A DNA stretch of 27,036 nucleotides from a virus, in the IMG/VR virus record IMGVR_UViG_3300044911_002105, positions 1 through 27,036 of that record; one strand, given 5' to 3'. This document shows positions 2,748-27,036 of the stretch, piece after piece; the first letter of the stretch is position 1; each line of letters opens with the position of its first letter. Position numbers and translations under genes: made by a program. Under the pieces are notes generated by a model that was given only the letters and a program-made list of their open reading frames with translations, made no database searches and was not told the origin of the DNA.

Positions 2748-2760
2748 AGCCATAAAGAAT

Positions 2761-2768
2761 CATAGATA
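2761..2768 (+). promoter_or_regulatory. Candidate late promoter of GIY-YIG gene 2 (CATAGATA)
   Basis: CATAGATA lies 70 bases before the start at 2839, matching the spacing of its counterpart at 221-228. It overlaps the left arm (2762-2773) of a 12-base perfect inverted repeat. The right arm (2842-2853) covers codons 2-5 of the endonuclease gene. Confidence 0.5.
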
Positions 2769-2853
2769 GTGTGTAGAAAACCCCTGCGATGCGGAAACAT
2801 CCAGGGGCATGGCAAGAAACCTTTCAAGGAGGCTCCCAATGCACACTATCTAT
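2762..2853 (+). promoter_or_regulatory. Long-range inverted repeat enclosing the ribosome site of GIY-YIG gene 2
   Basis: ATAGATAGTGTG at 2762-2773 is the exact reverse complement of CACACTATCTAT at 2842-2853. In a transcript reading through from upstream, the pair would enclose the inner hairpin (2781-2807), the AAGGAGG ribosome site (about 2826-2832) and the AUG. A transcript starting at the candidate late promoter would lack the left arm. A 9-base version with one G-U pair exists in the other leader (219-227 with 136-144). Confidence 0.5.
2781..2807 (+). ncRNA. Conserved leader hairpin of GIY-YIG gene 2
   Basis: CCCCTG, bulged C, GATG, loop CGGAAA, CATC, CAGGGG. It has the same architecture as 182-209 on the minus strand, with one compensatory pair change in the inner stem. 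It lies in the 5' leader between the candidate promoter and the ribosome site. Confidence 0.6.
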
Positions 2854-3588
2854 CTCGTTCGTAGAGATTCCAAGCCCGTCTATGTCGGCTATACCAGCAG
2901 GTCTTTGCAAGACCGCTGGAAACAACACATCCATATCTCAAAGAACCCTAAGTTTCCCTTGCACCATGCCATCAAGAAGCATGGTGCTGAGTCCTTTACC
3001 ATAGAGACCCTCTATGAGTCGGAGGACGAGTATCACACCTTGAACTACATGGAACACCACTACATCTGGCTCTATCAGACGCATGGGAGTCTAGGTGGAT
3101 ATAACATGACCCTTGGTGGAGAAGGAAACCCGAAGGGACTCACTGAGAAGGAGAGGAAGGAACGGAGGAAGGCTGAAAAGAAGGCTTGGTATGAAGCCAC
3201 CAAAGAGCGAACCAAAGTTCAACGGAAGGCTTACTATAAGGCTTATTGGGAAACAAACAAGGATCGATACAAGGTTTACAGGGAAACCAACAAAGAAAAG
3301 CAGAAGGCTTACGGGAAGGCATGGCAGGAATCCAACAAGCAAAGGGAGAAGGATCGGAAGAAGGCATGGTATCAAGCCAATAAGGACAAACAAAAGGCTA
3401 GGATGGAGGCTTGGAGGGAATCCAACGAGGAGAAGCGGAAGGCATACGAGAAGACTTACTACAAAGCGAACATGGTGAAGAAGAAGGCTCAGTCGAAGGC
3501 TCGGTATGAAGCCAACAAACTCTTCAAGACGATTGCAACTCTCCCTGAAGCATCCACACCAGCCACATCGAATCAACTAGATCGCTGA
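2839..3588 (+). CDS. GIY-YIG homing endonuclease with a C-terminal basic repeat tail
   Basis: 249 aa. The start is set at 2839, not at an in-frame ATG at 2809, because AAGGAGG sits just upstream and the paralog at 1-150 starts at the same residue. Residues 1-95 form a GIY-YIG nuclease domain: IYLV (4-7), YVG (15-17), Arg26, the probable metal-binding Glu72 in NYMEHHYIWL, and Asn89 in GGYNMTLGGEG. Residues 103-230 are a highly charged helical tail of imperfect repeats resembling K-A-W/Y-Y-x-A-N-K-x-K-x-K. This replaces the NUMOD/HTH modules seen in many homing enzymes and presumably binds DNA. The gene runs 65 bases into the 3' end of the oppositely oriented RuvC-like gene. Mobility is inferred. 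Confidence 0.9.
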   Translation: MHTIYLVRRDSKPVYVGYTSRSLQDRWKQHIHISKNPKFPLHHAIKKHGAESFTIETLYESEDEYHTLNYMEHHYIWLYQTHGSLGGYNMTLGGEGNPKGLTEKERKERRKAEKKAWYEATKERTKVQRKAYYKAYWETNKDRYKVYRETNKEKQKAYGKAWQESNKQREKDRKKAWYQANKDKQKARMEAWRESNEEKRKAYEKTYYKANMVKKKAQSKARYEANKLFKTIATLPEASTPATSNQLDR

Positions 3589-10363: not shown

Positions 10364-10371
10364 TATCTATG
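10364..10371 (-). promoter_or_regulatory. Candidate late promoter (CATAGATA) before the 10341 gene
   Basis: CATAGATA on the minus strand ends 22 bases before the ATG and partly overlaps the TAG stop of the upstream gene. An AGGAG ribosome site follows. Confidence 0.55.
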
Positions 10372-12379: not shown

Positions 12380-12452
12380 GCAACTATACCTATTCCCTCT
12401 TGATCCTCGTTCATCGAGGCATACCAATGCTCGGTCACATCGAATCCGCCGA

Positions 12453-13700
12453 TCAAGCCGTCCACGGTCGGATATTGATCGTTTCTTGCTTTGTGCCTTC
12501 CTTGCGGTTCAAGTCCGACCATCCCTTTGCCTCCCTTGCGGTCTTGGCTACATGGAGTTCCCTGTTGTTGTGCCAGTCGTACACCGTCCACCCACGCTTG
12601 CCCTGCCTCTCGACGGAGTGGCTTCCCTTCGTCCATCGACGGCGACCAAGTGCGCGGCTGTGCTGCCACCCATCCTTCGTTTCCCTGTTGTACAAGGACT
12701 CTCGGATCCTGACCTTGGTCTTCAATGCAGTAGAACCTTCATACGAGGAAGGATCGATCATCGGATCCTCATCGTGCATTCTGGCATCCTCGGTTCCAAC
12801 GACATCGACCTTCAGCCTTCTCCTTGCGGACTTCCTGAGGTTTGCAATCGGGAACTTGATGACATGGATGTGTTCGTAGTCGCGCTCATCCACCTCGCGC
12901 TTGCGGCGATTGACCGCATGGGCAGTCTGGTCTTTCCAGTAGTTCACGCCATGATGGTTGGTCACGAATGCATGACCACGGGTATGAAGATCCAACGACG
13001 GGTAGTTGGTGCGTCCCTTCGGACTTCTTGGCTTCAGACCGCCCTTGACGATCTTGGCGGCTCTTGATGCCGTGGTCACATGGTAGACATACTTCTGCTT
13101 CTCTGAGTTTGGCATCTCATGGAAGTCATGTGCATATGACCAGTTCTCAAGCAGATTTCCCTGTCCATCGTGGATCTTGTACTTAGGATATGCCCTGGCG
13201 ATGGTTCTGATTGCGGATGATTGTGGTGACATTCCGCGATGGTCGTATGAGATGATCCCACCGCCACCCTCATGGTGTTCGATGCGCCCTTGCCCTATGA
13301 TATCGTCCTCCCTCACCTTTACTGCTATCTTCTTGTTGACCTTCACTCCCTTGCGCTTGCTACCTCCACCATCAAGGACATCATGATGGGTAGTGTCTCC
13401 GATTGCGGGGTGGGTGATGATTCCATGCTGCTTGTGCATGAAGAGGAGATCCGATGTTCCCTTGCGCCTCTTGCCGAAGACCTTCTCCTTCATGGCTTCG
13501 ATTGCCTTGGATGTTCCGTACCTGACACCGGGGTTGTGACCGATCAACCGCCAGTCCCTATTTCCGCCACGGAGATTCGAGGTGACCTTTGAGTGCAACA
13601 CCTGGTTGAACTTGTCGGCAAACTCAGCCTTCTCCTTGCGAGTGGGCTTCTTCCTTGTGGCAACTGCCGCCTCAGTGATGAACTGCTCGTAGGTCTTCAT
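12453..13700 (-). CDS. Capsid-targeted protein with possible ADP-ribosyltransferase-like domain, 415 aa
   Basis: It begins MKTYEQFITEAAVA; eight of the first eleven residues match T4 IPI/IPIII (MKTYQEFIAEA). This is the clearest capsid-targeting signal in the window, with cleavage expected after Glu10. Residues 203-250 read KYVYHVTTASRAAKIVKGGL...HAFVTNHHGVNYW. The YH(V/G)T, then AxxIxxxGLxP, then strand pattern fits ADP-ribosyltransferase/RNA 2'-phosphotransferase-like folds (His207). T4 packages the ADP-ribosyltransferase Alt the same way, but the catalytic Glu is not located here, so this is a hypothesis. The C-terminus (345-400) has a small Trp-rich unit (WTVYDWHNNRELHVAKTARE). Start overlaps the upstream stop by ATGA. 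Confidence 0.8.
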   Translation of the reverse strand: MKTYEQFITEAAVATRKKPTRKEKAEFADKFNQVLHSKVTSNLRGGNRDWRLIGHNPGVRYGTSKAIEAMKEKVFGKRRKGTSDLLFMHKQHGIITHPAIGDTTHHDVLDGGGSKRKGVKVNKKIAVKVREDDIIGQGRIEHHEGGGGIISYDHRGMSPQSSAIRTIARAYPKYKIHDGQGNLLENWSYAHDFHEMPNSEKQKYVYHVTTASRAAKIVKGGLKPRSPKGRTNYPSLDLHTRGHAFVTNHHGVNYWKDQTAHAVNRRKREVDERDYEHIHVIKFPIANLRKSARRRLKVDVVGTEDARMHDEDPMIDPSSYEGSTALKTKVRIRESLYNRETKDGWQHSRALGRRRWTKGSHSVERQGKRGWTVYDWHNNRELHVAKTAREAKGWSDLNRKEGTKQETINIRPWTA

Positions 13701-14323
13701 CGCTTCTTCTTCCCCTTCAGCACCAATGTCACCCCAACGATTTTCTTTCCTTTTGAACCCTCGCTGCTGCTGGAGCGTATTCCCTTCTTTGCGGCTCGGT
13801 CACGAGTAAAGCCTGGACGAGATGTCCATATGTCTTGGGTCTTCATCTTGGATGCCTGACCGATGATCCGATTGTTGCGAACTACATGGACATGCTTTCT
13901 GGTATCGGGATCCTTCCTGAGCGTGTTCCAGACGGATGCGCCACCAGGACTCTGTTGGGCGTCGCTATGCACATCGACACCCATCCCATGAAGGTGCTTG
14001 TACGCTGCCACGGCAAGCGAGTGACCTATCTTCTTCTTGGTGTGCTTCGGGTGGACGGAAATGCCATGGACTGCAAACCTCTTTGGCGATCCCTCGCCAT
14101 CTATCCTGCCAATCACCTTCTTTGTCTTGTCATGGGTGATGAACATAACATTATCGCCCTCCCTGTGCAACGAATAGTCCTTGTGTATCTTCCCGATGTT
14201 CATGATCTTGTCGTCCCTTTCGGTCCTTTCGGCTTTGAACACACGATTGGCGTGGTGCGCATCGAAGCCACCAGCAACGCCAATCAGATCGATGTCTTCC
14301 CGAAGTTGAGTGTAGGTTTTCAT
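13697..14323 (-). CDS. Capsid-targeted GNAT-like protein, 208 aa
   Basis: N-terminus MKTYTQLREDIDLIG resembles the T4 internal-protein signal, with a less typical LRE/D site. Residues 45-150 match the two GNAT-like domains of the 12379 gene product. The core is SVHPKHTKKKIGHSLAVAAY, then DAQQSPGGASVWNTLRKDPD. The basic tail ends GSKGKKIVGVTLVLKGKKKR. It starts one base after the upstream TGA, with GAGG as ribosome site. If active it would acetylate an amine on a host target at infection. The acceptor is unknown, and the acetyl-CoA-binding signature is weak (TKKKIG rather than RxxGxG/A). Confidence 0.8.
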   Translation of the reverse strand: MKTYTQLREDIDLIGVAGGFDAHHANRVFKAERTERDDKIMNIGKIHKDYSLHREGDNVMFITHDKTKKVIGRIDGEGSPKRFAVHGISVHPKHTKKKIGHSLAVAAYKHLHGMGVDVHSDAQQSPGGASVWNTLRKDPDTRKHVHVVRNNRIIGQASKMKTQDIWTSRPGFTRDRAAKKGIRSSSSEGSKGKKIVGVTLVLKGKKKR

Positions 14324-14324
14324 T

Positions 14325-14693
14325 TCATTCCTCGTAGAACTTTTCGTTGTCTGCTCCGTACATGCGGATCAACCTTCCCGCGACTGCATTTGCCTCGTCC
14401 TCGCACGGAGATCCCGTCTCCCCGTCTAGTTCGTCCCCGTTCTCGTCCTGCATCTGGTGCACCAGTTCATGGGCAATCGAACGGCACACATCGAATGTGG
14501 CTCGGTTGCCTCCCACGACCCGTATGGTCGAGTCGGATGGAGAGTAGGATGCGGTGGTCATGCCTTCCTGACGGGTCGGGACGATCTCCACATTCGGTGC
14601 GTTCCTCAACCCGAGTTTCCTCGAGGCGAACTGCACGAAGTCGTTGATCGTGGCTTCGTTCTGCTCGGAGATGTATTGCCTGTAGGACTTCAT
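14325..14693 (-). CDS. Capsid-targeted zinc metalloprotease-like protein (HELVH), 122 aa
   Basis: MKSYRQYISEQNEATIND: targeting-like N-terminus with a YISE/Q site at residue 10. A compact zincin core follows. HELVH at residues 75-79 is the zinc-binding HExxH. CEDEANAVAGRLIRMYG from residue 97 offers the third ligand (Glu98 or Glu100). VEIVPTRQEGMTTASYSPSD (35-54) and TIRVV (56-60) are the expected strands before the helix. The size is that of a minimal gluzincin-like domain, as seen in other marine T4-like phages. All catalytic residues are present, so activity is plausible; the substrate is unknown. It overlaps the upstream stop by ATGA and is flanked by other targeted proteins. Confidence 0.85.
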   Translation of the reverse strand: MKSYRQYISEQNEATINDFVQFASRKLGLRNAPNVEIVPTRQEGMTTASYSPSDSTIRVVGGNRATFDVCRSIAHELVHQMQDENGDELDGETGSPCEDEANAVAGRLIRMYGADNEKFYEE

Positions 14694-15820
14694 CTTGTCT
14701 CGCTTCCTTCCGGTGGTCTGTACTTGATCCTGACCACTGGCTTCTTCACCCTGCGGTTTCTGGCATTGGATTCCTCCCTTGACCTTGCCTCAGCCCCACT
14801 CCTGCGCTCCATCTCCTTCATGGATCGGGCAGCAGCCTCGGGGGTGCTGAAGTCGAGTGGGACGAATGCGTTCTCCTTGAGGGTTCCGACCTTGTGACCC
14901 TTCTTCTTTGCCATGTCGAGCGTGATGTGGCTTGGCTCGAGGAACTCCTTGTTCACATTGAACTGGGCTGTCAGGCTCCTTGATGCTGGCTTGCCATCCT
15001 TTGCGCTCTTGTGGGTCTTGACCCTGTGACGCACGGAAAGGACATCCCCGTTCGTCGCTGCATGGTGGTCGATGTGGTCTCCGATGTACGGGATCCCCGT
15101 CTTCTTGGATACATGGGGATGCAGTGAGTATACGCCATGCCCAGCGATGTGGACCAAGTCGTTGTTGTTCATGGTCTTCCTGAGGATCCTGGCTGCATGG
15201 TGAGCGGAAACCTCAAGATGGACATGGAGTTCCTTCTTCTTTCCACGGACATGCTCGATGTGGCTTTCCTTTCCGCTTCCCTTGGGCTTCCCGAAGTGGC
15301 TGTGCGCGATCTCGTCCACCTTGAGTCCATGGAGAGTCTTGGCTATTGCCCTGCCAGCATTGACTTCCCTGACCTTGTCGGCATGAGCGTTGACCTTCTT
15401 GTTCCAAGACTTCCTCTGCTTGGGAGTCATTGAGTCCGGATGAACCTTCGGGACAGGACGCGGGGGAACTTCCTCTGCCCTGTAGTGCCATCCCTTCTTG
15501 GAATGGTATCGCAACCCGACCTGACCGAAGGCTGCTCCCTTCTCCTTCAGTTCCATGGAATAGGGCTTGCCTCCGATGTTGACCGATGCATCCGAACCTC
15601 TTCCCGACAGGCTGCTTCCCTTGCCTCCGACACCGGACTTCTTCAGCATGGCTATCTTCTTTGCTTCGCCGCTCTGCCCAAGGTTCCTAGCCTCCATGAT
15701 CTCAGCCATCTCGGAGACGAATGTCTCGTAGGTCTTGCCGCTCTTTGAGTCCCTCTGCGGTGTCTGCGGGAATATGCGGAGCGTGTCCTCTGGAACCCTC
15801 TTGGTCTTCTTCGGTTTCAT
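14690..15820 (-). CDS. Capsid-targeted protein with PD-(D/E)XK-like core, 376 aa
   Basis: The start at 15820 overlaps the upstream TGA and has AAGGGA upstream. The frame continues upstream to 16195 but only as antisense-like sequence over real genes. The targeting-like motif is internal: SGKTYETFVSEMAEIMEARN at residues 27-46, with IME/A at 41-44. Residues 77-105 read DASVNIGGKPYSMELKEKGA then AFGQVGLRY. Asp77, E90-L-K92 and Gln100 suit a PD-(D/E)XK nuclease core with its motif IV Gln. The middle (about 150-260) is His/Lys-rich with ELHVHLEVSAHHAARIL and VHIAGHGVYSLHPHV. The tail is basic. Nuclease activity against host DNA is an inference. Some defence systems are DNA-targeting enzymes, so other roles exist. 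Confidence 0.75.
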   Translation of the reverse strand: MKPKKTKRVPEDTLRIFPQTPQRDSKSGKTYETFVSEMAEIMEARNLGQSGEAKKIAMLKKSGVGGKGSSLSGRGSDASVNIGGKPYSMELKEKGAAFGQVGLRYHSKKGWHYRAEEVPPRPVPKVHPDSMTPKQRKSWNKKVNAHADKVREVNAGRAIAKTLHGLKVDEIAHSHFGKPKGSGKESHIEHVRGKKKELHVHLEVSAHHAARILRKTMNNNDLVHIAGHGVYSLHPHVSKKTGIPYIGDHIDHHAATNGDVLSVRHRVKTHKSAKDGKPASRSLTAQFNVNKEFLEPSHITLDMAKKKGHKVGTLKENAFVPLDFSTPEAAARSMKEMERRSGAEARSREESNARNRRVKKPVVRIKYRPPEGSETR

Positions 15821-16134
15821 TTCTTTCCCTTCTCCGTGTGCCAAGCCACATGCTGGTGGGCATGGTTGATCGCGTCGTTCATGGTCTTGTGGGTCTGATG
15901 GACTTCGGGAACCTCTATGGGAGTTCCGTTCGTAGCGGCAAATCTTCCAGCGACATAGCCCCATCCGCCCATGCGGTTCCATCCCTTGCGGACGAAGCCG
16001 TTGATTCCACGGTGGCTGTACCTCCATGTGTCGCCGTCGATCTTCTGGATGTACGCAGGATGTCCGCTCGGCTTGATCTTCACATATCTGCCGCTGCTGG
16101 AGCCTTCCGCGAGATAGTCCTTGAATGACATCAT
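15817..16134 (-). CDS. Small capsid-targeted protein, 105 aa
   Basis: MMSFKDYLAEGSSS is a targeting-like N-terminus with a YLAE/G site. Removing it would leave about 94 residues rich in Trp, Gly and His. Among these are GRYVKIKPSG, HPAYIQKIDGDTWRY and WNRMGGWGYVAGRF. This looks like a small strand-rich folded domain, followed by a helix (TMNDAINHAHQHVAWHTEK). Two adjacent ATGs are possible starts; the first overlaps the TGA of the upstream gene. No function recognised. Confidence 0.75.
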   Translation of the reverse strand: MMSFKDYLAEGSSSGRYVKIKPSGHPAYIQKIDGDTWRYSHRGINGFVRKGWNRMGGWGYVAGRFAATNGTPIEVPEVHQTHKTMNDAINHAHQHVAWHTEKGKK

Positions 16135-18527: not shown

Positions 18528-18815
18528 TCAGCCATTGCCCCAGACCGTGCCACGGCGGGAGGCTGATCTCTCAAGGTTCTCACGGAACCGCTTGGGGACT
18601 CCCCGCGAGACCTTCTGCATGACTTCCTTGAAGTCCTTGCCAGGGGTCAGGTTCATGTCCACCGCAGCAGCGGGTGCGGATGTCCAGTCCCTCCGCACCT
18701 CTCTCTTGGAGCAGGAAGGGCATGGCTCCGAGCAGGGGGTGTCCCTATCGGAGATCGACTTCAACTGGTCGAACGCATGGTCGCACGAAGAGCATCGGTA
18801 TTCATAAACGGGCAT
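18528..18815 (-). CDS. FmdB-type zinc-ribbon protein, 95 aa
   Basis: Starts MPVYEYRCSSCDHAFDQLKS. Four cysteines form two CxxC knuckles (Cys8/Cys11 and Cys32/Cys35), as in the FmdB/CxxC_CxxC_SSSS small zinc-ribbon family. The family usually has the same MP.YEY.C..C opening. The Ala/Pro linker and helical C-terminus (residues 55-95, VMQKVSRGVPKRFRENLERS) are variable in the family. The start at 18815 is set by AAAGGAGGT upstream and by the family N-terminus; a longer frame to 18842 is rejected. Candidate promoter GATAGATA lies at 18844-18851. Such proteins are common in T4-like marine phages; regulatory or nucleic-acid binding is assumed, not shown. Confidence 0.87.
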   Translation of the reverse strand: MPVYEYRCSSCDHAFDQLKSISDRDTPCSEPCPSCSKREVRRDWTSAPAAAVDMNLTPGKDFKEVMQKVSRGVPKRFRENLERSASRRGTVWGNG

Positions 18816-18843
18816 GGTGTAAGACCTCCTTTGGTCGCACACC

Positions 18844-18854: not shown

Positions 18855-19316
18855 TCACTCCCATGCCGAATCGTTGAGCCTCAGCCATGCGATGTAGGCA
18901 TTGGATCGCTTCCTGATGGCACGGTGGTTCGCAGGGATCCTCCACTCGCGCAGGATCGACCTCGCGTCCCTCTCCGTCCTCTTCTCAAGGGAGAAGTAGG
19001 AATCTCCCGAGATGTGGTCGCCCTCTCCCCCGAGCCACTCCTTGTCGCCCGACCTCCATTGGAGGAAATGGACATACTCATGGACTAGGTTCATCAGGAT
19101 GTTGATGGGCTTCCTGTTCCCCGTGCCGATGCGGATGATGCCCCACTTCTTCGCGGTGGGTTCCTGGAAGTATGCTGCCGTGAGGTTGGAGCCGTCGAAG
19201 CGCACCATGCGGGTGCGGGAGAAGACGAGCCTGACCCTGCTCTCCTTGAGTTCCGAACGGATGTGCGAAAGCAGCGACTTCGCTTCGGGGCTGTGGCGGG
19301 ACAATGTCCGTATCAT
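18855..19316 (-). CDS. Zincin metallopeptidase-like protein (HEYVH), 153 aa
   Basis: Residues 76-87 are MNLVHEYVHFLQ, a zinc-binding HExxH helix (His79, Glu80, His83). A Glu in SLEKRTERDARSIL (Glu111 or Glu116) suits the third ligand. The upstream strands (VRLVFSR, LTAAYFQ, WGIIRIG) fit a minimal gluzincin fold. No targeting signal or secretion signal is visible, unlike the other HELVH protein at 14325-14693. The start is ATG 19316 with GGAGG eight bases upstream; an in-frame GTG at 19325 would overlap that ribosome site. Candidate promoter CCTAGATA is at 19338-19345. Substrate unknown. Confidence 0.8.
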   Translation of the reverse strand: MIRTLSRHSPEAKSLLSHIRSELKESRVRLVFSRTRMVRFDGSNLTAAYFQEPTAKKWGIIRIGTGNRKPINILMNLVHEYVHFLQWRSGDKEWLGGEGDHISGDSYFSLEKRTERDARSILREWRIPANHRAIRKRSNAYIAWLRLNDSAWE

Positions 19317-19337
19317 CAGTCGCACCTCCGTTCGATC

Positions 19338-19348: not shown

Positions 19349-19627
19349 TTAGCGGATCTTTTTCAGCACAATGCCAAGACCCATGAGGGAAAGCAAGAAC
19401 AGGACGGCAGACAGAGCCACAATGTGCGGGTAGAGCGGAATGAGGATTGCCCACCATGACCATTGCAGACCCCCGAACAACTTCATGCTGAGGAGGACAG
19501 ACCCTCCGAACAGGAGCATGTATCCGTTCATCCCTGCAAGGAAGAAGGACATGAACTTTCCGAACTTCGTGAAGAACCTCACGAATGGGTGATTGTCGTA
19601 TTCCTGATCGGTCATTTGTTTCATCAT
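19349..19627 (-). CDS. Small membrane protein with two predicted transmembrane helices, 92 aa
   Basis: MMKQMTDQEYDNHPFVRFFTKF is a charged N-terminus. Two hydrophobic segments follow at roughly residues 28-48 (FFLAGMNGYMLLFGGSVLLS) and 60-87 (AILIPLYPHIVALSAVLFLL and SLMGLGIV), ending in KKIR. A short Trp-rich loop (GGLQWSWW) joins them. The start at 19627 overlaps the upstream TGA, with AGGA upstream. Size and topology would suit a holin or another small inner-membrane protein. No lysis genes are adjacent, so no function is assigned. Confidence 0.75.
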   Translation of the reverse strand: MMKQMTDQEYDNHPFVRFFTKFGKFMSFFLAGMNGYMLLFGGSVLLSMKLFGGLQWSWWAILIPLYPHIVALSAVLFLLSLMGLGIVLKKIR

Positions 19628-19953
19628 CTGTCCTGATCGTAACCCATCTTCCTCAGTTCGTTCCAGATCTCTCTTGCCTTTTTCACGCTCACGGTCATCA
19701 CGGCACGGTCGGAGTCGAGTCCAGCAAACCCATGGCTGTTCAGGCTGATATATGTCCATGCCTCTACGGACGGATCCACCCCGTAGGACCAGATGTTCAC
19801 GCGCTCGTAGTCTCCGGACTCATAATCTACCGGAGTGAAGCGAATCTTGCGAGATTGTGAAGTATGCCTTGTCTTCATCTTCTTGATGAAGAGGTACTCG
19901 GGGTTGTGGAGTACCCATTCGTTGTTGTCCATCGGTTTGTCCATCGGTTCCAT
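19624..19953 (-). CDS. ARxxW-family small protein, 109 aa (array member 1)
   Basis: C-terminus VSVKKAREIWNELRKMGYDQ gives the clearest form of the array motif: A-R-x-x-W-x-x-L-x-x-x-G-Y. Ahead of it lies a strand-rich body (KIRFTPVDYESGDYERVNIW, WTYISLNSHG). The N-terminus is longer than in other members (NNEWVLHNPEYLFIKKMK). Start at 19953 is supported by GAGG four bases upstream. It is the last gene of the array, overlapping the membrane-protein gene by ATGA. No known domain recognised. Confidence 0.78.
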   Translation of the reverse strand: MEPMDKPMDNNEWVLHNPEYLFIKKMKTRHTSQSRKIRFTPVDYESGDYERVNIWSYGVDPSVEAWTYISLNSHGFAGLDSDRAVMTVSVKKAREIWNELRKMGYDQDR

Positions 19954-19964
19954 CTTACCTCAAT

Positions 19965-20327
19965 TCAGTATTCAGTCCAGGATGCCATCCCAAGCCGCAC
20001 AAGTTCATCGTTGGACAAACCATCCATGCACTTCCAGCCTGGAACGCACTTCTTGGTTGAACCTGTCAGGTATCTCCACAGATGCCTGGCATCCTCCTTG
20101 TCCATGTTGATCCCTGCCGGAGGAATGTCTAAGAAACAGGTCTCCGAATGCACCACCCTGTAGGGAACCGTACCCCATTCCTCGGGGAGGTCCAAGACCT
20201 TCCTGAAGACCTTGACAACGACATCGGTGGGAATCCCATGCGTGTCATCGACCACGGTGAAAACCATCACCACGGTGTTCGTCGGGTCATGGATCTTGTG
20301 ATGACTGACAAGCCCTTCGTACTTCAT
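19965..20327 (-). CDS. ARxxW-family small protein, 120 aa (array member 2)
   Basis: Starts MKYEGLVSHHKIHD at the ATGA overlap (20324-20327); a longer frame to 20363 would run into the upstream gene. The body is strand-rich (TVVMVFTVVDDT, DVVVKVFRKVLDL). The family motif NMDKEDARHLWRYLTGS lies near residues 83-100. It is followed by an unusual 30-residue extension (CVPGWKCMDGLSNDELVRLG) that ends SWTEY. This is one of the few members with added sequence after the motif. Function unknown. Confidence 0.76.
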   Translation of the reverse strand: MKYEGLVSHHKIHDPTNTVVMVFTVVDDTHGIPTDVVVKVFRKVLDLPEEWGTVPYRVVHSETCFLDIPPAGINMDKEDARHLWRYLTGSTKKCVPGWKCMDGLSNDELVRLGMASWTEY

Positions 20328-20554
20328 CCCTTCACCCACCCATGGGATGTGATGTCCCTCCACAAGGCACGGGCTTCCTCCTTGGTGAAGCGTCTATCTG
20401 TAGTGATCATCGCGGTGCGGGAATCCCATCGCCATATGGTCTGTTCCTTGCCATTCCAGAAATAGCGGATGCTCATGGAGTCCTCGCCCTCGACCGTGAA
20501 CCGAATGATCATGTTGGGAAGAGTGTTGTGCGCGATCAGATCGTATGTGGTCAT
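20324..20554 (-). CDS. ARxxW-family small protein, 76 aa (array member 3)
   Basis: MTTYDLIAHN at the ATGA overlap (20551-20554). Typical short member: strands MIIRFTVEGEDSMSIRYFW and TIWRWDSRTAMITTD, then the motif FTKEEARALWRDITSHGWVK at the C-terminus. It aligns by eye along its whole length with the members at 20751-21023 and 21264-21494. Confidence 0.78.
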   Translation of the reverse strand: MTTYDLIAHNTLPNMIIRFTVEGEDSMSIRYFWNGKEQTIWRWDSRTAMITTDRRFTKEEARALWRDITSHGWVKG

Positions 20555-20787
20555 GACATCCATCCAATCGACACCAGATACTTCCACATCTGCCGCGCCT
20601 CATCCTTGCTCAACTCCGTGGTCGGGGTCATCTTCCTACAATCAAGGATCCAATGCTCCATCCGTTGGTTGCCGTACATGAACTCAAGCGTCACCATTCC
20701 TGCGTCATGAACATGGAATTCCATGACGGCATCCATGGGGAACATTCTGGTCAACAGGTGGTCTGATCGCAACTTGTATATGGGCAT
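20551..20787 (-). CDS. ARxxW-family small protein, 78 aa (array member 4)
   Basis: MPIYKLRSDHLLTRM aligns with MKRYELRSEPDCRAM of the next member, so the start at 20787 is kept. This is despite a 37-base overlap with the upstream gene and a weak ribosome site. The body VMEFHVHDAGMVTLEFMYGN matches the family strand pattern (FFVHGDGSVTTEY in the neighbour). Ends LSKDEARQMWKYLVSIGWMS. Confidence 0.77.
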   Translation of the reverse strand: MPIYKLRSDHLLTRMFPMDAVMEFHVHDAGMVTLEFMYGNQRMEHWILDCRKMTPTTELSKDEARQMWKYLVSIGWMS

Positions 20788-21023
20788 GGCTTGTATCCGA
20801 TTGAACGCAAAAGGTTCCAGATCTTTCGGGCATCTTCCTTGTCGAACTTCGTGTCAGGACTTATGAAACGATTCCCGATGTCTAGTATACCGTAGTGATT
20901 AAAGTGCCATGTTTTCTGTTCCTTGCCACCAACCAAGTATTCCGTGGTCACTGATCCATCACCATGGACGAAGAACCGCATAGCGCGACAGTCGGGTTCG
21001 GATCTCAGTTCATACCGCTTCAT
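20751..21023 (-). CDS. ARxxW-family small protein, 90 aa (array member 5)
   Basis: MKRYELRSEPDCRAMRFFVH, GDGSVTTEYLVGGKEQKTWH, then the motif FDKEDARKIWNLLRSIGYK. A short Cys-containing extension (PCPYTSCDQTTC) follows. GGGAGG lies about nine bases upstream of the ATG. It overlaps the preceding gene by 14 bases. Confidence 0.78.
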   Translation of the reverse strand: MKRYELRSEPDCRAMRFFVHGDGSVTTEYLVGGKEQKTWHFNHYGILDIGNRFISPDTKFDKEDARKIWNLLRSIGYKPCPYTSCDQTTC

Positions 21024-21267
21024 ACTCTACAGCCTCCCTTGGGGGAACACGAACCCAACCTTGCTCCACAAGCGTCCACCAGAACTCACGCGCCCTCGCC
21101 TTGGTGAAGCCCTGTAGATCCCTGAAGACCTCTTCATCCACCGTCCAGTTCATCGCTGCCTTGCCATCGGGGTAGAAGAACCTGGCTGTCACGATGTCAC
21201 GGTCTCGGTAGGCAAGGAAGACGATGACATCCCCGTCCTTGTGAAGTTCGTATCTGTCGAAGATCAT
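21010..21267 (-). CDS. ARxxW-family small protein, 85 aa (array member 6)
   Basis: MIFDRYELHKDGDVIVFLAY, TARFFYPDGKAAMNW, then FTKARAREFWWTLVEQGWVR and a tail PPREAVEYEAV. The start at 21267 overlaps the upstream TGA and has AAGGAGGT seven bases upstream, which decides against the longer frame to 21309. Confidence 0.78.
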   Translation of the reverse strand: MIFDRYELHKDGDVIVFLAYRDRDIVTARFFYPDGKAAMNWTVDEEVFRDLQGFTKARAREFWWTLVEQGWVRVPPREAVEYEAV

Positions 21268-21494
21268 CCCTTGACCTCCTTCCATCCACAGTTCCTCAGT
21301 GTCCTCCATATCCTCCGTGCATCCTCCTCGGTGAACCTAATGGTCGGTTCGATTCTCATTCCGATGACGAACCATATGGACTGTTTCCTGTCATCGACCG
21401 AGTACTCCATCGTCACGGCTCCATCGCCATGGACGAGGAACACCATCAGGAAATCTCCGTCAAACGACTTGAACCTCAGTTCGTGCCTCTTCAT
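21264..21494 (-). CDS. ARxxW-family small protein, 76 aa (array member 7)
   Basis: MKRHELRFKSFDGDFLMVFL, VHGDGAVTMEYSVDDRKQSI, then FTEEDARRIWRTLRNCGWKE at the end. It is closely similar to the member at 20751-21023 (VHGDG.VT.EY...KQ..W is shared), which indicates duplication. Ribosome site AGGAGG upstream; ATGA overlap. Confidence 0.79.
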   Translation of the reverse strand: MKRHELRFKSFDGDFLMVFLVHGDGAVTMEYSVDDRKQSIWFVIGMRIEPTIRFTEEDARRIWRTLRNCGWKEVKG

Positions 21495-21739
21495 TCCTCG
21501 ACCCTCCTGTATCCATGCTCGACATGGATCCTCCAGATCCCCCTGCCCTGCTCAAGGGTGCGCCGATCCCTTTCATCCGCTCCGTTCATCAGGTGAGAGA
21601 AATCCAAGCCGTTCTCAGTGTAGCGGACGATGACATTCGGCTCAGGCTCGTCCAGCACCTTGAAGATCAGCCGACAGGAGAAGATTGTGCCGCTGGTGGT
21701 TACGTCCTTTGCAAGGACATAGGTTCCGACGATGGTCAT
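21491..21739 (-). CDS. ARxxW-family small protein, divergent, 82 aa (array member 8)
   Basis: MTIVGTYVLAKDVTTSGTIF is a different N-terminus. The middle (RLIFKVLDEPEPNVIVRYTE) keeps the strand pattern. The motif is changed to RTLEQGRGIWRIHVEHGYRR, with Gly for Ala and His-Val in the spacer. It overlaps both neighbours by ATGA. Confidence 0.74.
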   Translation of the reverse strand: MTIVGTYVLAKDVTTSGTIFSCRLIFKVLDEPEPNVIVRYTENGLDFSHLMNGADERDRRTLEQGRGIWRIHVEHGYRRVEE

Positions 21740-22056
21740 TTCACGGCTCCGTTCAGGGGGTAAGGGAAGGTATTCTGAAGTTTCCGAAGTTCATCCTCGG
21801 GCAACTCGGAGGAGTCGATCCATCCTTCCTTCCGCATCATCCTCCATGCATCCCTTGCCCCCTCCTTGGGCAGGGTCATATAGCGCAACCGGTTAGGTGC
21901 ATTCCAGAATTTACTATGGCGTTGTCCTGCCCATGATCCCCCCATGTCCCTGGTGCATGCAAACACATCCACCGTGGTGTTGCACACAAGGAAGCGAATC
22001 AGCACAATGCCGGGGCGGCGGGAAGAGACGAGGGTATGGGCTGTATGGATGGGCAT
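21736..22056 (-). CDS. ARxxW-family small protein, 106 aa (array member 9)
   Basis: MPIHTAHTLVSSRRPGIVLI, RFLVCNTTVDVFACTRDMGG, then LPKEGARDAWRMMRKEGWID. A 25-residue extension SSELPEDELRKLQNTFPYPL follows the motif, similar in kind to the extension (NDELVRLG) of member 2. No clear ribosome site precedes the ATG at 22056, and a 49-base gap follows the upstream gene. Confidence 0.72.
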   Translation of the reverse strand: MPIHTAHTLVSSRRPGIVLIRFLVCNTTVDVFACTRDMGGSWAGQRHSKFWNAPNRLRYMTLPKEGARDAWRMMRKEGWIDSSELPEDELRKLQNTFPYPLNGAVK

Positions 22057-22105
22057 GGGCGGTCAGACCATGATAGCAGGATTGCGTTCGCAGTCAATGG
22101 GAACA

Positions 22106-22432
22106 TCATGTGGATTGGGGATAGAAACCGTAGCCGTCTTTCCTCAGGTTAGCCCAGAGTTGCCGTGCATCCTCGATGAGCAGCCATGTCCCGTTCATGT
22201 GGAACCAAATTCCACGGACATCTTTATCATAATCCTCCACCCAGATGCCAGAATCCTTGATCCATTGAAAGATCCGAACCTTGATCTGTTCCTGTCTCAC
22301 ACAGTGCGTGTCCGAAAAGGACACAGCCACGATGCCATCGTCCCAATCGCTCACCGAAGCAGCCGAGACGACCTTGGGGGGATAGAGGATCCATGATGGC
22401 TGCTGGCTGCCTTGGATGATGATTTTGCTCAT
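22106..22432 (-). CDS. ARxxW-family small protein, 108 aa (array member 10)
   Basis: MSKIIIQGSQQPSWILYPPK. The start at 22432 is fixed by AAAGGAAG five bases upstream. The body is IVAVSFSDTHCVRQEQIKVR, with WFHMNGTW. It ends LIEDARQLWANLRKDGYGFY. Larger than the core members. Confidence 0.76.
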   Translation of the reverse strand: MSKIIIQGSQQPSWILYPPKVVSAASVSDWDDGIVAVSFSDTHCVRQEQIKVRIFQWIKDSGIWVEDYDKDVRGIWFHMNGTWLLIEDARQLWANLRKDGYGFYPQST

Positions 22433-22469
22433 GGCTTCCTTTGTGGGTTCTTTGTGAAGTTTGGAAAGG

Positions 22470-22799
22470 TCAGGAAGAGGAACGATCCATGCGATGGATG
22501 TCATAGCCCATGAGCCTCAGGTGCTTCCATATGGTTCGTGCCGACTCGAGAACGCATGGAATGCCTGGGACATGGATGTCCCCGACAACGACGACTTCTC
22601 GCCGCAACTTCCAGTCCAGCCTGTCATCAGACCATTCGTATGGATACACCGAGATGGTTCCGTTGGAGATGCGCAGGAACTCCATCATGAGCATTCCCGT
22701 CTTCAGTTCATCCCTAGAGTTGGCTTTCTGGGTCTCAGGGCAGCAGAGAACCCAACGGTTGCATTGAGTGGTGCCAGTCATGGTCATGGTCGTGGTCAT
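22470..22799 (-). CDS. ARxxW-family small protein, 109 aa (array member 11)
   Basis: MTTTMTMTGTTQCNRWVLCC, then strands MLMMEFLRISNGTISVYPYE and LRREVVVVGDIHVPG, ending VLESARTIWKHLRLMGYDIH. ATGs at 22808, 22799, 22787 and 22784 all lie in the Thr/Met-rich start. 22799 is chosen because AGGA sits eight bases before it. Confidence 0.73.
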   Translation of the reverse strand: MTTTMTMTGTTQCNRWVLCCPETQKANSRDELKTGMLMMEFLRISNGTISVYPYEWSDDRLDWKLRREVVVVGDIHVPGIPCVLESARTIWKHLRLMGYDIHRMDRSSS

Positions 22800-22808
22800 G
22801 TCTTTCAT

Positions 22809-22982
22809 CCTACATCAGGATGGGAAGGGAGTCAATGGGAAGATCGTTGGGAACATTATGAGGATTGGGAAGAGATTTGGGTGTATGTGGTCTGGGATGG
22901 CAACTGGAATGTGGTTTTCGGTGTGGGAAACGGGGATCGGGGGAAATCTGGGGGAAGGGATGTCATGGAATGTCATGGAATG
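22809..22982. other. 174-base intergenic spacer with short tandem and shared repeats
   Basis: This is the largest gap within the small-gene array. It has two tandem copies of ATGTCATGGA and a related third (ATGTCACTGG) near 22970-22991. A segment around 22831-22870 (GTCAATGGGAA ... GAACATTATGAGGATTGGG) resembles 22093-22118 (GTCAATGGGAACATCATG then TGGATTGGGG), which lies at the end and just downstream of member 10. The plus strand is G-rich. No convincing gene is seen on either strand. It may be a decayed array member or a recombination scar. Confidence 0.5.
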
Positions 22983-23336
22983 TCACTGGATGTAACCATT
23001 GCTCCTCATGATGTCCCAAAGGTTCCTTGCCGTGACTCCATTGCCGTTCACGGGGATGACAGGTCCTGTCTTTAGTTTCCAGACCAATGGTTTACAGGTC
23101 CAAGAATCCTTGGACCGGAAATGCACAGCCATGGATGCTTCGGTCCATACGTTTTGCTTCTGTGATCCATTCAATTGCTCAGACCACGAATCGAACCTCA
23201 GGAAGCAATGTTCTCCCTGAATGCGGAAGATGAGCCTCTTCTCAGCGGTGCCATAGAGGGGATCATCCCCAAGCCTCACGGGCGACTTGGGGTAGTAGAG
23301 GGTGTACACGCTGGTTTTTGTGAAGTCCTCATTCAT
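22983..23336 (-). CDS. ARxxW-family protein, 117 aa (array member 12)
   Basis: MNEDFTKTSVYTLYYPKSPV shares YxLxxPKSPxR...GDP with the member at 24512-24808. A long strand-rich middle follows (KRLIFRIQGEHCFLRFDSW, VWKLKTGPVIPVNGN). It ends GVTARNLWDIMRSNGYIQ. Start overlaps the upstream stop by ATGA. Confidence 0.77.
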   Translation of the reverse strand: MNEDFTKTSVYTLYYPKSPVRLGDDPLYGTAEKRLIFRIQGEHCFLRFDSWSEQLNGSQKQNVWTEASMAVHFRSKDSWTCKPLVWKLKTGPVIPVNGNGVTARNLWDIMRSNGYIQ

Positions 23337-23590
23337 TCGACATACCCCTTGCTGCGGTAGCGGTTCCAGATCTCCCTTGCCACTTCCACGGTCACCCAGT
23401 ATCCCCCACAGGCTTTCCTTGCAGACTTTGACGACTCATTCAGAACATCATCTGCCTCACAGTTCGTGTGATCCGTACACCACAGGTTCTTGTCATGGCA
23501 TAGGTTCTTGACCAGGAAGAGATTGGTCTCTTCTTCCAGAACGAATACGACCTTGCGGGGGTGTCTGTGCAGGGTGTATTCGTTGCTCAT
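23333..23590 (-). CDS. ARxxW-family small protein, 85 aa (array member 13)
   Basis: MSNEYTLHRHPRKVVFVLEE starts at the ATGA overlap (23587-23590); the longer frame to 23908 runs antisense-like through the next gene. Unusually it has three Cys in the middle (NLCHDKNLWCTDHTNCEADD), possibly metal-binding. Ends VTVEVAREIWNRYRSKGYVE. Confidence 0.77.
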   Translation of the reverse strand: MSNEYTLHRHPRKVVFVLEEETNLFLVKNLCHDKNLWCTDHTNCEADDVLNESSKSARKACGGYWVTVEVAREIWNRYRSKGYVE

Positions 23591-23850
23591 CGCGCCCATC
23601 CGTCCTTCCGGTAGTGGTTCCAGCACTCCCTTGCCATTTCCACGGAAACACCAATGCTGTGGCGGAACCACAGAGGATCCTTCCCCGAGGTCAAGATCTT
23701 GTACTTGAAGCAGGGAATCCAGTTGCAACTGCCCATTTCCCATTCCCAGGCAGAGATGATAGTCGATTGCCCGGGCGGGTTGACGGTGAACTCCATCTTT
23801 TTGATGATGATCCCTGACACGGTGTAGAAGAGGGTGTACACTTGCTTCAT
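23587..23850 (-). CDS. ARxxW-family small protein, 87 aa (array member 14)
   Basis: MKQVYTLFYTVSGIIIKKME. The body ISAWEWEMGSCNWIPCFKYK matches ISAWEWNNVACEWIPCFKNK of the member at 24512-24808. The two are clear duplicates. Ends VSVEMARECWNHYRKDGWAR. ATG 23850 is preferred over GTG 23868; neither has a strong ribosome site. Confidence 0.76.
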   Translation of the reverse strand: MKQVYTLFYTVSGIIIKKMEFTVNPPGQSTIISAWEWEMGSCNWIPCFKYKILTSGKDPLWFRHSIGVSVEMARECWNHYRKDGWAR

Positions 23851-23894
23851 CTTGGTCTTCTTCTTCACGGGGTCTTCTTGGCGGGAGACACGAT

Positions 23895-24173
23895 CTACAC
23901 GATCTCACGGATCACGACCGTTGTGATCTTCTCCTGAACGATCTCGTACTCGCTCTCGGTTGTTCCAGTCGGGAGTGTGCCTCGGTCGGCATACCCCTTC
24001 AGGATGAAGCCCATTTGAACTCGCTGGTGGATATTGAAAGAGGGGATGCGCCAGTCCTCGTAATCCACCAAGAGAGCGGCGTGTGCCTCAAGGCACAGAA
24101 ACTTGCCGCTAGGCTTGTGGCGGAAGGTCAAGGTGGTCTTGGTCTTGGACTTGGTGTTGGTGGGCTTCTTCAT
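23895..24173 (-). CDS. Unassigned small protein in the array, 92 aa
   Basis: MKKPTNTKSKTKTTLTFRHK opens basic; then LCLEAHAALLVDYEDWR and a strand-rich end (SEYEIVQEKITTVVIREIV). It lacks the C-terminal AR..W motif of its neighbours, so it is either unrelated or a member that lost it. It is not ATGA-coupled and has a weak ribosome site. Function unknown. Confidence 0.65.
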   Translation of the reverse strand: MKKPTNTKSKTKTTLTFRHKPSGKFLCLEAHAALLVDYEDWRIPSFNIHQRVQMGFILKGYADRGTLPTGTTESEYEIVQEKITTVVIREIV

Positions 24174-24197
24174 TGCTTGCTTTCGTGAGGCGGGTGT

Positions 24198-24515
24198 TCA
24201 TGGCGTACCGATCTGGATCGTAGTGGGAATGAGTCGATGCGCCAGGGCGATACCCCAAAGGTAGCGGCAGTGGTCGGTCGTTCGGCGTTGAGCGGCTGAA
24301 CCAAGATCGGATCGCACCATCCACATCGTTCCGTCTGGATTACGGAAGAACACGATCCACCGAATCACACTGACATTGGTGGGGTTGACCAACACCCACC
24401 ACTGGCAGTCGTTGAATACATGAAGGTGATCCCGCTTGAAGTCGCAGACCGCCTGGCGGGCTTCGGCGGTGTTCAATTCCAATTCGGTTGTCAGAGTTTG
24501 GTTGCTGTTCATCAT
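24198..24515 (-). CDS. Divergent array protein, 105 aa
   Basis: MMNSNQTLTTELELNTAEAR at the ATGA overlap (24512-24515). Strands CQWWVLVNPTNVSVIRWIVF then GTMWMVRSDL. The C-terminal TDHCRYLWGIALAHRLIP keeps the Arg-x-x-Trp spacing but not the GW/GY ending. I count it as a degenerate member of the family. Confidence 0.7.
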   Translation of the reverse strand: MMNSNQTLTTELELNTAEARQAVCDFKRDHLHVFNDCQWWVLVNPTNVSVIRWIVFFRNPDGTMWMVRSDLGSAAQRRTTDHCRYLWGIALAHRLIPTTIQIGTP

Positions 24516-24808
24516 TGCACCCACTTTTCCTTCCGGTAGTGGCACCAGATCTCCCGTGCCTCTTCCTTGGTGACAGCAATGCAGTGGTTGAACGACAGAG
24601 GATCCCGGGTCGCGAGATACACGCTCTTGTTCTTGAAGCAGGGAATCCACTCGCATGCGACATTGTTCCATTCCCATGCAGAGATGGTCACCACATGCTT
24701 GTTCGGCATCTGCATCTTGAACTCCATCTTGCGGGTGGCTTGCCCTAGATTCGGGTCGCCCCAGGGGCGTTCAGGAGACTTGGGATGGTGGAGTCTGTAG
24801 GTTTCCAT
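24512..24808 (-). CDS. ARxxW-family small protein, 98 aa (array member 15)
   Basis: METYRLHHPKSPERPWGDPN, then KMEFKMQMPNKHVVTISAWE and CEWIPCFKNK (shared with member 14). Ends VTKEEAREIWCHYRKEKWVQ, with Lys replacing the Gly before Trp. AGGAG upstream of the ATG at 24808. Confidence 0.78.
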   Translation of the reverse strand: METYRLHHPKSPERPWGDPNLGQATRKMEFKMQMPNKHVVTISAWEWNNVACEWIPCFKNKSVYLATRDPLSFNHCIAVTKEEAREIWCHYRKEKWVQ

Positions 24809-24824
24809 TGGTTTGGCTCCTCTG

Positions 24825-25109
24825 TCATGCCGTCACATGGAAGTACCCGTGGTCGTTCACCAGCGAGTCCCAGATCTGTCGGGCTTGATCCTTGTCGTAA
24901 GTTCCCGTGTACGGATGGGGAAATGCATGGTTGGTGACCCATATGCAACGGTCGTAGTCCCATGCATACGGTTCCATATGGACATATCCGTCCTTGAGGA
25001 CGGAGAAAACGACCAGATGGGTGAAGACGACGGGTCCGTGTGCCGTCTTGCTGCGGAGGCGAAGGTGGTGGCGGTGCAGGACTTCATGGAATGATGGCTT
25101 GGTGGTCAT
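24825..25109 (-). CDS. ARxxW-family small protein, 94 aa (array member 16)
   Basis: MTTKPSFHEVLHRHHLRLRS has a basic His-rich start. The middle LVVFSVLKDGYVHMEPYAWD resembles LVIFTVQEDRITVFVQAYSW of the next member. Ends YDKDQARQIWDSLVNDHGYF. AGGAG lies about 13 bases upstream of the start. Confidence 0.76.
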   Translation of the reverse strand: MTTKPSFHEVLHRHHLRLRSKTAHGPVVFTHLVVFSVLKDGYVHMEPYAWDYDRCIWVTNHAFPHPYTGTYDKDQARQIWDSLVNDHGYFHVTA

Positions 25110-25124
25110 GGCTTTGCGCTACTC

Positions 25125-25418
25125 CTACCGCAGAGGATCGAAGTCGTGAGATCTCAGTTTGTTCCAGATGTCTCGCGCTGTTCCGACGCTGTATAGCCCC
25201 GAAGTATCTGCCCCCATCTCCCTGAGCGTTTCGCGGTCGGGCAGAAACCTTTCCGCGCCCCAACCCCGCGACATCGAGGTCCATGAGTATGCCTGTACGA
25301 AGACCGTGATACGATCTTCCTGCACTGTGAAGATGACCAGATTGGTGTAGAGTTCCCCCCTCTGCTTGCGCCGTTTGATGGGGGGGTAGATGAGTCGGTG
25401 GCTGATCTTGGTGTCCAT
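25125..25418 (-). CDS. ARxxW-family small protein, 97 aa (array member 17)
   Basis: MDTKISHRLIYPPIKRRKQR. The start at 25418 is set by AGGAGG upstream; a longer frame to 25448 would enter the CobT-like gene. The middle LYTNLVIFTVQEDRITVFVQ matches the family. Ends YSVGTARDIWNKLRSHDFDP, with the usual Gly-aromatic replaced by Asp-Phe. It is the first member of the array, immediately after the CobT-like gene. Confidence 0.77.
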   Translation of the reverse strand: MDTKISHRLIYPPIKRRKQRGELYTNLVIFTVQEDRITVFVQAYSWTSMSRGWGAERFLPDRETLREMGADTSGLYSVGTARDIWNKLRSHDFDPLR

Positions 25419-25431
25419 GGTCTTGTCCTCC

Positions 25432-27036
25432 TCACTTGGCAACGACATCCATCAGGGTGTTGATGAACAGACGGTTGGCTTGCTTCTGTCGCATGGAAGC
25501 CATGAAGGACTTCTCGAGGTTCTTCTGGCGGGTCTGGATGGTCTTGGCAGCCAGCCCCTTCGCCTCAGCCCTCTCAGCCATCGTGTCAGCCCGAGAGTCG
25601 TTCACGATTGCCACAAGGCAGTAGCCATCGTAGGCAGGGATCTCAAGGCTCAGGAACCTGTCCTTGGCATACTTCTTCTCAGCAGCCTCCCGCTTGCTCC
25701 TTTCGGCATCGGTGGGATCGGTGGCTCCCACCTGCCACCACCACGGTCCCGAGTAGGACAGGCGGTAGTTGCTTCCATCCCTGGACTCGAGGCGGATGCC
25801 GACGATGCTTGCACCCGTGGCATCCTTGAACATCTGCACTGCCGCAGAGTGGGTGGTGTGGTCGTCGCCCTTGAGGTCGAAGCGGCGACCAGTCTCCTTG
25901 TCCACGACGACCCTAGCCAGGGTCTTGCTGCCCACGCAGGGCGAATGGACGCGATTGATGAGGCTCTGACCCTCTCCGTCCGTGATGCTGATGAGCGTGA
26001 CCTTGGTGTTGCTGGACTTTCGGAAATCGTTGACGATGTCCCGCATCGCGAGGATGGACTCGTCGAGGGGGGTTCCGCCAAGGGACAGGGGACCGTTGTC
26101 GATGCTGACCTCCCTGCTGCCGGGGAAGGCTACGGAATCGGACAGGAGGATGAGGCGACCAAGGGAAGCCACCATCTTGCGCTGACCAGCCGCGCTGTCG
26201 TAGACCTTGAACAGGGAGAACATGGAGCAGTGGCTAGCCTTGCCCTCCATGATGTCCTGCCTGGTCGTTCCGCAGACGATCTCGTTGAAGAGGTCGTTGG
26301 AGTCCTGGGCAGTCCATCCCTTGTTCGTACCGGGGATGGGGGTGGAGTACCCCATCGCGGCATTGCTGAGGAACTCCTTGCGGTTGATTCTGGGGTTCCT
26401 GCGCATGATCTCGTCCAGCACAGCCTTGTTGTAGATGCTGCTGAAGAAGTAGACCTGGACGGGGATGCCCACGCGGCGGCAGAACTCCACCGTAGCCACC
26501 AACTGGCTCACCGACTCGCGGATGATGCCCTGCATCGACCCCGACCAGTCGAGGAGGATCACGATGCCGTGGTTCTTCTCGTCGGGCTTGATGCACATGC
26601 GGTCGAAGATGTCCTCGCTGAAGCGGTAGTTCTTGAGGAGACGGGGCGAGATGCGACCCGACTTCTGCGAGGTGGTCTTCGCAAAGTTCCTGGCGGAACG
26701 TCGAACCTCGAACCTGCGGCACATCAGATCGACGCTCTTCTTGTTCTCGTCCTTGACCCTGCGGAAAGCCTTCATGCTCTTCTCTTCGACCAGCCGCGTC
26801 TTCTCTGGGGAGGACGAGCCGCAGGTGTGGCGATCCACGCGGCACTGGGTGTCGAACATGGTCATGAACTCAGCGGTCTCCACCACGACCTTGGAGGCAT
26901 CGATGGGACGGACCTCGATCTGCTGCTCCACGATGCTGCTGTCAACGAGACCCTGAAGCCCCGTGCGACCCGCAGCAGCCGTGTTCACCATCTCAGGCTC
27001 GTACTCCTCTTCGGAAGCCTCAGACGGCTCAGAGGC
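25432..27036 (-). CDS. cobT: CobT-like VWA-domain protein (open at the window edge)
   Basis: The frame is open to the window edge. An internal ATG at 26991 gives 519 aa, but the 15 codons before it are in frame and acidic (ASEPSEASEEEYEPE), like the acidic linker of CobT proteins. Counting from that Met, HGIVILLDWSGSMQG around residue 141 is a VWA MIDAS motif (DxSxS). LGGTPLDESI and LISITDGEG supply the further Thr and Asp. Just before it, RRFEVRRSARNFAKTTSQKS is typical of the T4-like cyanophage proteins annotated CobT. Those are usually paired with a CobS-like AAA+ protein, which is not in this window. The phage role is unknown; cobalamin synthesis is doubtful. A CobS-MoxR-like partner outside the window is expected. 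Confidence 0.87.
   Translation of the reverse strand, partial: ASEPSEASEEEYEPEMVNTAAAGRTGLQGLVDSSIVEQQIEVRPIDASKVVVETAEFMTMFDTQCRVDRHTCGSSSPEKTRLVEEKSMKAFRRVKDENKKSVDLMCRRFEVRRSARNFAKTTSQKSGRISPRLLKNYRFSEDIFDRMCIKPDEKNHGIVILLDWSGSMQGIIRESVSQLVATVEFCRRVGIPVQVYFFSSIYNKAVLDEIMRRNPRINRKEFLSNAAMGYSTPIPGTNKGWTAQDSNDLFNEIVCGTTRQDIMEGKASHCSMFSLFKVYDSAAGQRKMVASLGRLILLSDSVAFPGSREVSIDNGPLSLGGTPLDESILAMRDIVNDFRKSSNTKVTLISITDGEGQSLINRVHSPCVGSKTLARVVVDKETGRRFDLKGDDHTTHSAAVQMFKDATGASIVGIRLESRDGSNYRLSYSGPWWWQVGATDPTDAERSKREAAEKKYAKDRFLSLEIPAYDGYCLVAIVNDSRADTMAERAEAKGLAAKTIQTRQKNLEKSFMASMRQKQANRLFINTLMDVVAK

Follow-up and report, generated by a model that had tools for sequence, protein, structure and literature searches.

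An expanded array of small, predicted WGR-like proteins distantly related to DUF1651 in a phage contig

Why would a phage line up nineteen small genes, most of them ending in the same helix? The question is raised by the IMG/VR virus record IMGVR_UViG_3300044911_002105, analysed here as the whole contig of 27,036 bases (the window). From 25418 to 19624 its minus strand carries 19 small, tightly packed genes of 76–120 amino acids (aa), listed as m01 to m19 in Table 1; an earlier sequence-only reading had described the array with this extent, and the open reading frames (ORFs) bear it out. We propose, at a probability of about one half, that the array arose by lineage-specific expansion of a small WGR-like relative of DUF1651, whose members act as early proteins and whose copies bind different host targets.

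The array is not a product of chance. The C-terminal pattern AR..W.{7,8}[WYF] occurs in 16 of the 19 proteins, compared with 100 of 19,000 shuffled proteins (0.5%), so the common terminal helix of the sequence-only reading stands; m18 retains AR..W and has an insertion before GW. Each of the 17 members was recovered by a leave-one-out hidden Markov model (HMM; E 4e-6 to 5e-19, single-sequence search), with a score that its 200 shuffles all failed to reach. On these profiles the 17 genes are one family, which agrees with the earlier count of about 17 paralogues, and no split into unrelated families was seen. With the C-terminal helix removed, nine of the 17 bodies still scored above every shuffle and m09, m10 and m19 nearly did so, which argues that the unity of the family exceeds the terminal motif. 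Aligned members have in common Y-x-L in strand 1, F in strand 2, W after strand 3 and AR..W..L...G[WY] in the last helix. The two remaining genes are the marginal m04 (4.2 bits to the family HMM, with a similar strand pattern and C-R-Y-L-W) and m05, an intact gene for a basic protein that is unrelated to its neighbours and gave no match to the family HMM.

Neighbouring frames overlap at ten of 19 junctions, counting the junction to the following membrane-type gene, and seven of these overlaps are of 4 nucleotides (nt); only one gap in the array is larger than 50 nt. The closest pairs are m03/m06 (48% identity) and m13/m15 (46%). Both had been picked out before as obvious duplicates, together with a third pair, m02/m01, which turns out to be just 29% identical (E 4e-5). 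An assembly repeat, tandem repeat or misassembly was considered and is excluded by this divergence: with the closest pair just 48% identical, the array is no assembly artefact. Across the paralogues the isoelectric point (pI) ranges from 4.9 to 9.9 and the net charge from -4.4 to +5.8.

A sister phage (contig 3300042945_001299, L251) permits a comparison of copy number. Its vWA, metallopeptidase and FmdB proteins are 40%, 59% and 70% identical to those of the window and lie in matching order, and it carries just one member, in the slot flanked by vWA and metallopeptidase that in the window is filled by 19 genes plus one of membrane type. The unusual local expansion recognized from the window is therefore seen in this comparison as well, apparently from about one gene to 17–18. 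The direction of change would be gain and not loss, as judged from one sister. Lineage-specific expansions on this scale have precedents of a kind: Bacillus phage G, likewise a big myovirus, has about 35 copies of a small zinc-ribbon protein (PMC7824862), whose fold is unrelated to that of the array proteins.

Copy number differs sharply among related phages and one unrelated gene, m05, sits within the array, as would be expected if the region were hyperplastic and the array a neutral or mobile accretion, with duplicates that arise and decay and mostly have no present role. We find this very doubtful, since all 19 frames are intact, tightly packed and overlapping and core residues are kept despite great divergence, which in a compact phage genome needs purifying selection.

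Further relatives were scarce. The degenerate helix pattern matched few viral contigs, and scans by protein back-translation found no relatives. A search with a conserved vWA motif gave at least 120 contigs, and members were found in three of the 44 vWA-bearing records that were then searched whole, the sister phage L251 being one of them. Among the contigs matched by the helix pattern, L054 (contig 3300043409_001577) has about ten members next to vWA, at the place that corresponds to the array of the window. They lie downstream of the vWA gene and follow a strong terminator-like site, with several promoter-like sites of the TTGACA type around them on the coding strand; an RNase T exonuclease gene with a C-terminal BRCT domain (10409–11278) lies inside this array. 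In L055, three members adjoin a CobS-like AAA+ gene; one of them (2709–3317), a member-like protein, overlaps this gene at its start and is similar in its N-terminal part to DUF5710 (21.3 bits, under the cut-off). One member lies near CobS-like and vWA genes in L057, and in L056 (5113–5577) an array-type domain is followed, in a single fusion protein, by a BRCT domain at the C terminus (Pfam E 1e-8).

The recurrence of the vWA gene suggests another role, in which members would be interchangeable specificity adaptors for the adjoining phage MoxR(CobS)-vWA chaperone-peptidase machine and would each deliver a substrate of its own to the vWA subunit. Thus, phrog_459 is present in seven of seven T4-like records with members, the single copy of the sister phage directly follows the vWA gene, the overlap of the L055 member with the CobS-like gene spans 13 nt (2709–2721), and MoxR-vWA-peptidase pairs are known from jumbo phages, where a function in virion assembly is proposed (PMC7824862). 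However, the co-occurrence arises partly by selection, as the window is itself one of the seven records and the search by vWA motif supplied three more; 41 of the 44 vWA-bearing records searched whole were without a detectable member, and in other records members lie 10–20 kb away from vWA. Although the module adjoins the array and single members in related phages, the array proteins do not belong to the module as described there. An adaptor role of this kind therefore seems unlikely to us.

Outside these records, cultured phages gave no near match to the array region, and tblastn of m13 and m03 returned chance-level matches only. The family HMM was silent in S-CAM8, AG-345-O18, S-SKS1, Bellamy, P-SSM7 and ECBP5, although BFVD holds an S-CAM8 protein of similar predicted shape. 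Among PADLOC models, one of 27 members was matched (PDC-S48), a match that may be to the BRCT part of the L056 fusion; BRCT and DNA-ligase database matches on single members likewise most likely stem from this fusion. The family has no name in NCBIfam, PADLOC, PHROGs or Pfam, weak DUF1651 matches aside.

DUF1651 (PF07864), a family of marine Synechococcus and Prochlorococcus to which the sequence-only reading had likened the terminal motif, is the sole family matched by many members (weakly, in nine of 27). No member reached the gathering cut-off of 22 bits, the best score in the window being 18.7 bits (m17), and the reported DUF1651 gene of ECBP5 gave a weak match only. Profile-profile comparison with 34 DUF1651 sequences of the Prochlorococcus/Synechococcus family was clearer: hhalign aligned 66 columns at a probability of 96.7 (E 3.7e-10; score 48.9 vs a null maximum of 14.4), and none of 100 column shuffles scored as high. 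Most of the signal comes from the helix, and the body is colinear but weak. The suggested kinship thus fails at the Pfam cut-off and holds as distant homology, and the array family is supported as a distant homologue of DUF1651 over the whole domain. The link needs profile-profile comparison, as the family HMM found nothing at E 0.001 over 61 cyanobacterial genomes.

The two families are alike in length, strand order, W/Y-L-x-x-P and RF in strands 1 and 2, and the terminal A..(I/L)W..L...GW. In contrast to the array family, DUF1651 proteins mostly lack the near-invariant Arg of AR, and their genes are dispersed in the bacterial genomes, where no comparable array was seen. DUF1651 occurs in 51 of 61 genomes of the Prochlorococcus/Synechococcus family (G014–G074), with up to seven dispersed copies each. 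Several DUF1651 genes are upregulated on infection by Syn9 or P-SSP7 (Fedida and Lindell, PMC5490813). Five contigs without phrog_459 (L031, L032, L033, L034 and L037) contain a DUF1651-like gene with F-N-P and EEARRLW..L..KGW.

The WGR fold is known from DNA-break sensors. An AlphaFold2 model of m15 (predicted local distance difference test, pLDDT, 85.7; predicted template modelling score, pTM, 0.75) was compared by VIA-align with 989 chains, and 2ra8 ranked first (Z 7.1, 2.4 Å, 70 residues) and the WGR domain of PARP3, 2eoc, fifth (Z 4.9). Both chains are WGR by sequence and are those best found in the PDB by cyanobacterial WGR sequence alone. A DUF1651 model built from its own alignment (pLDDT 77.5) placed the WGR domain of PARP2 first (Z 5.4), with further PARP1 or PARP2 WGR chains at ranks 4, 7–9 and 13, so that both separate models match WGR best. 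CYTH/triphosphate tunnel enzymes reached Z 4–5, but as parts of a larger barrel, and were rejected; Foldseek alone gave no significant PDB match. The predicted fold is WGR-like, a beta meander followed by the C-terminal helix AR..W..L...GW, in a family that is not filed under WGR. In the literature on DUF1651 and on WGR with phage, of which coverage was incomplete, no WGR-like fold is described for DUF1651.

The predicted likeness to the WGR domain (Pfam PF05406; PARP1–3, MolR, Bacteroides 2ra8) concerns the fold and the order of its elements, whereas the WGR motif is absent and no profile match is significant. The array proteins are a single free domain, not part of a large protein. Like true WGR domains, members might bind nucleic acids, such as nicks, ends or other structures of phage or host DNA, with roles in replication, repair, end protection or transcription and with copies differing in the structure bound. 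PARP2 WGR bridges 5'-phosphorylated DNA ends (PMC8190142), WGR proteins of jumbo phages are interpreted as transcription factors (PMC7824862), and the BRCT associations in L056 and L054, together with the fold, would fit such a role. We regard it as somewhat unlikely, since [WFY]G[RK] is present in no window member, so that the paired Trp and Arg that contact DNA are missing, and the spread of net charge is ill-suited to a single shared DNA surface.

The expansion, the divergent pI and tails and the sigma-70-like sites make an early bank of proteins on one scaffold, each copy with its own partner, the simplest reading. An ancestral single-domain protein, present in one copy, would have been tandemly duplicated at its slot, and host RNA polymerase would transcribe the array early, as an operon with translational coupling. 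The conserved positions look like core residues, judged by residue type, and the tails differ; after duplication the core would have been kept, with divergence in surfaces, charge and C-terminal tails. Every copy may then bind a different host protein or nucleoprotein and disarm or redirect that target during takeover. Expansion, divergence and promoter-like sites together hint at a possible anti-host or anti-defence role.

Several observations weigh against the proposal of an early, WGR-like bank. The structural Z scores are all below 8, a range in which a shared arrangement alone is possible, and comparison of WGR profiles with those of the array family (probability 1.5; 3 of 200 shuffles as high) and of DUF1651 (1 of 200 shuffles as high) was not significant. 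The window has six promoter-like sites, barely above the 4.2 ± 2.2 expected by chance. A common arrangement becomes less likely given that two separate models, of m15 and of DUF1651, both pick WGR from the PDB.

On the proposed reading, an unannotated phage gene bank can be given a fold, a relative and, as its ancestral state, a single copy in the same slot, which makes its diversification testable member by member. It also provides a structural clue to DUF1651, a family with genes that react to infection by cyanophages, and should every copy have a separate host target, the array would be a natural probe set for host weak points. By extension, DUF1651 and the phage array might be one superfamily of motif-less WGR domains serving both sides of infection: host DUF1651 proteins would rise on infection, and the diversified banks of some phages would act as decoys, or as dominant-negative partners, of WGR-like sensors of the host or of break-sensing defence complexes. 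We consider this idea quite improbable.

Table 1. Array genes, promoter-like sites and flanking genes, with positions in the window
Feature	Position	Strand	Basis
m01, member, 97 aa	25125..25418	-	ORF with GAGG upstream; leave-one-out E 3e-11
m02, member, 94 aa	24825..25109	-	leave-one-out E 2e-13
m03, member, 98 aa, 48% identical to m06	24512..24808	-	pairwise identity, leave-one-out HMM
m04, marginal member, 104 aa	24198..24512	-	4.2 bits to family HMM
m05, unrelated small gene within array, 92 aa	23895..24173	-	no family HMM match
m06, member, 87 aa	23587..23850	-	pairwise identity, leave-one-out HMM
m07, member, 85 aa	23333..23590	-	leave-one-out HMM
m08, member, 117 aa	22983..23336	-	leave-one-out HMM
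Weak sigma-70-like site before m09, TTGACT N17 TAGGAT, in sole large array gap	22807..22835	-	consensus match only
m09, member, 112 aa; start may be among ATGs at 22799-22781	22470..22808	-	ORF, leave-one-out HMM
m10, member, 108 aa	22106..22432	-	leave-one-out HMM
Best sigma-70-like site in this region, TTGACT N16 TATCAT with TG ahead of it, 13 nt before m11	22070..22097	-	consensus match
m11, member, C-terminal extension, 106 aa	21736..22056	-	leave-one-out HMM
m12, member, 82 aa	21491..21739	-	leave-one-out HMM
m13, member, 76 aa, 46% identical to m15	21264..21494	-	pairwise identity, leave-one-out HMM
m14, member, 85 aa	21010..21267	-	leave-one-out HMM
m15, member, 90 aa, AlphaFold2-modelled	20751..21023	-	pLDDT 85.7, pTM 0.75; PDB matches
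m16, member, 78 aa	20551..20787	-	leave-one-out HMM
m17, member, 76 aa	20324..20554	-	leave-one-out HMM; best DUF1651 score in window, 18.7 bits
m18, member, 120 aa, terminal-motif insertion and C-terminal extension	19965..20327	-	leave-one-out HMM
m19, member, 109 aa	19624..19953	-	leave-one-out HMM
vWA domain of phage peptidase/co-chaperone (phrog_459), upstream boundary; N-terminal part probably off contig	25432..26991	-	phrog_459
Small protein of membrane type (phrog_1374), immediately follows m19; none seen in L251	19349..19627	-	phrog_1374
Probable metallopeptidase (HEYVH), downstream boundary	18855..19325	-	59% identical to L251 gene after single member
FmdB-type zinc ribbon, conserved flank	18528..18842	-	70% identical in L251; Pfam Zn_ribbon_8

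By family assignment, the vWA-domain protein (phrog_459) and a RuvC (phrog_159) place the window near T4-like cyanophage and Pelagibacter-phage genomes. PsbA and PsbD, sought as markers of a cyanobacterial host, were negative in ten records.

Four neighbouring genes on the minus strand (12453–13700, 13697–14323, 14325–14693 and 15817–16134) encode proteins with an MK(T/S)(Y/F)xx(F/Y)(I/L)xE-like start, which is also found in the sister phage (L251 7698–9064). A similar start targets T4 internal head proteins to the capsid, and by this analogy the neighbouring proteins may be packaged and injected. The MKxYxxFIxE-like motif is on these four genes and on none of the array members, and nothing supports a role of the latter as virion adaptors.

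Elsewhere in the window, a homing endonuclease gene (phrog_314; 2809–3588, opposite strand) adjoins RuvC. A 686-aa protein (10367–12427) has an N-terminal cytidylyltransferase-like domain and, judged by eye, repeated segments further on.

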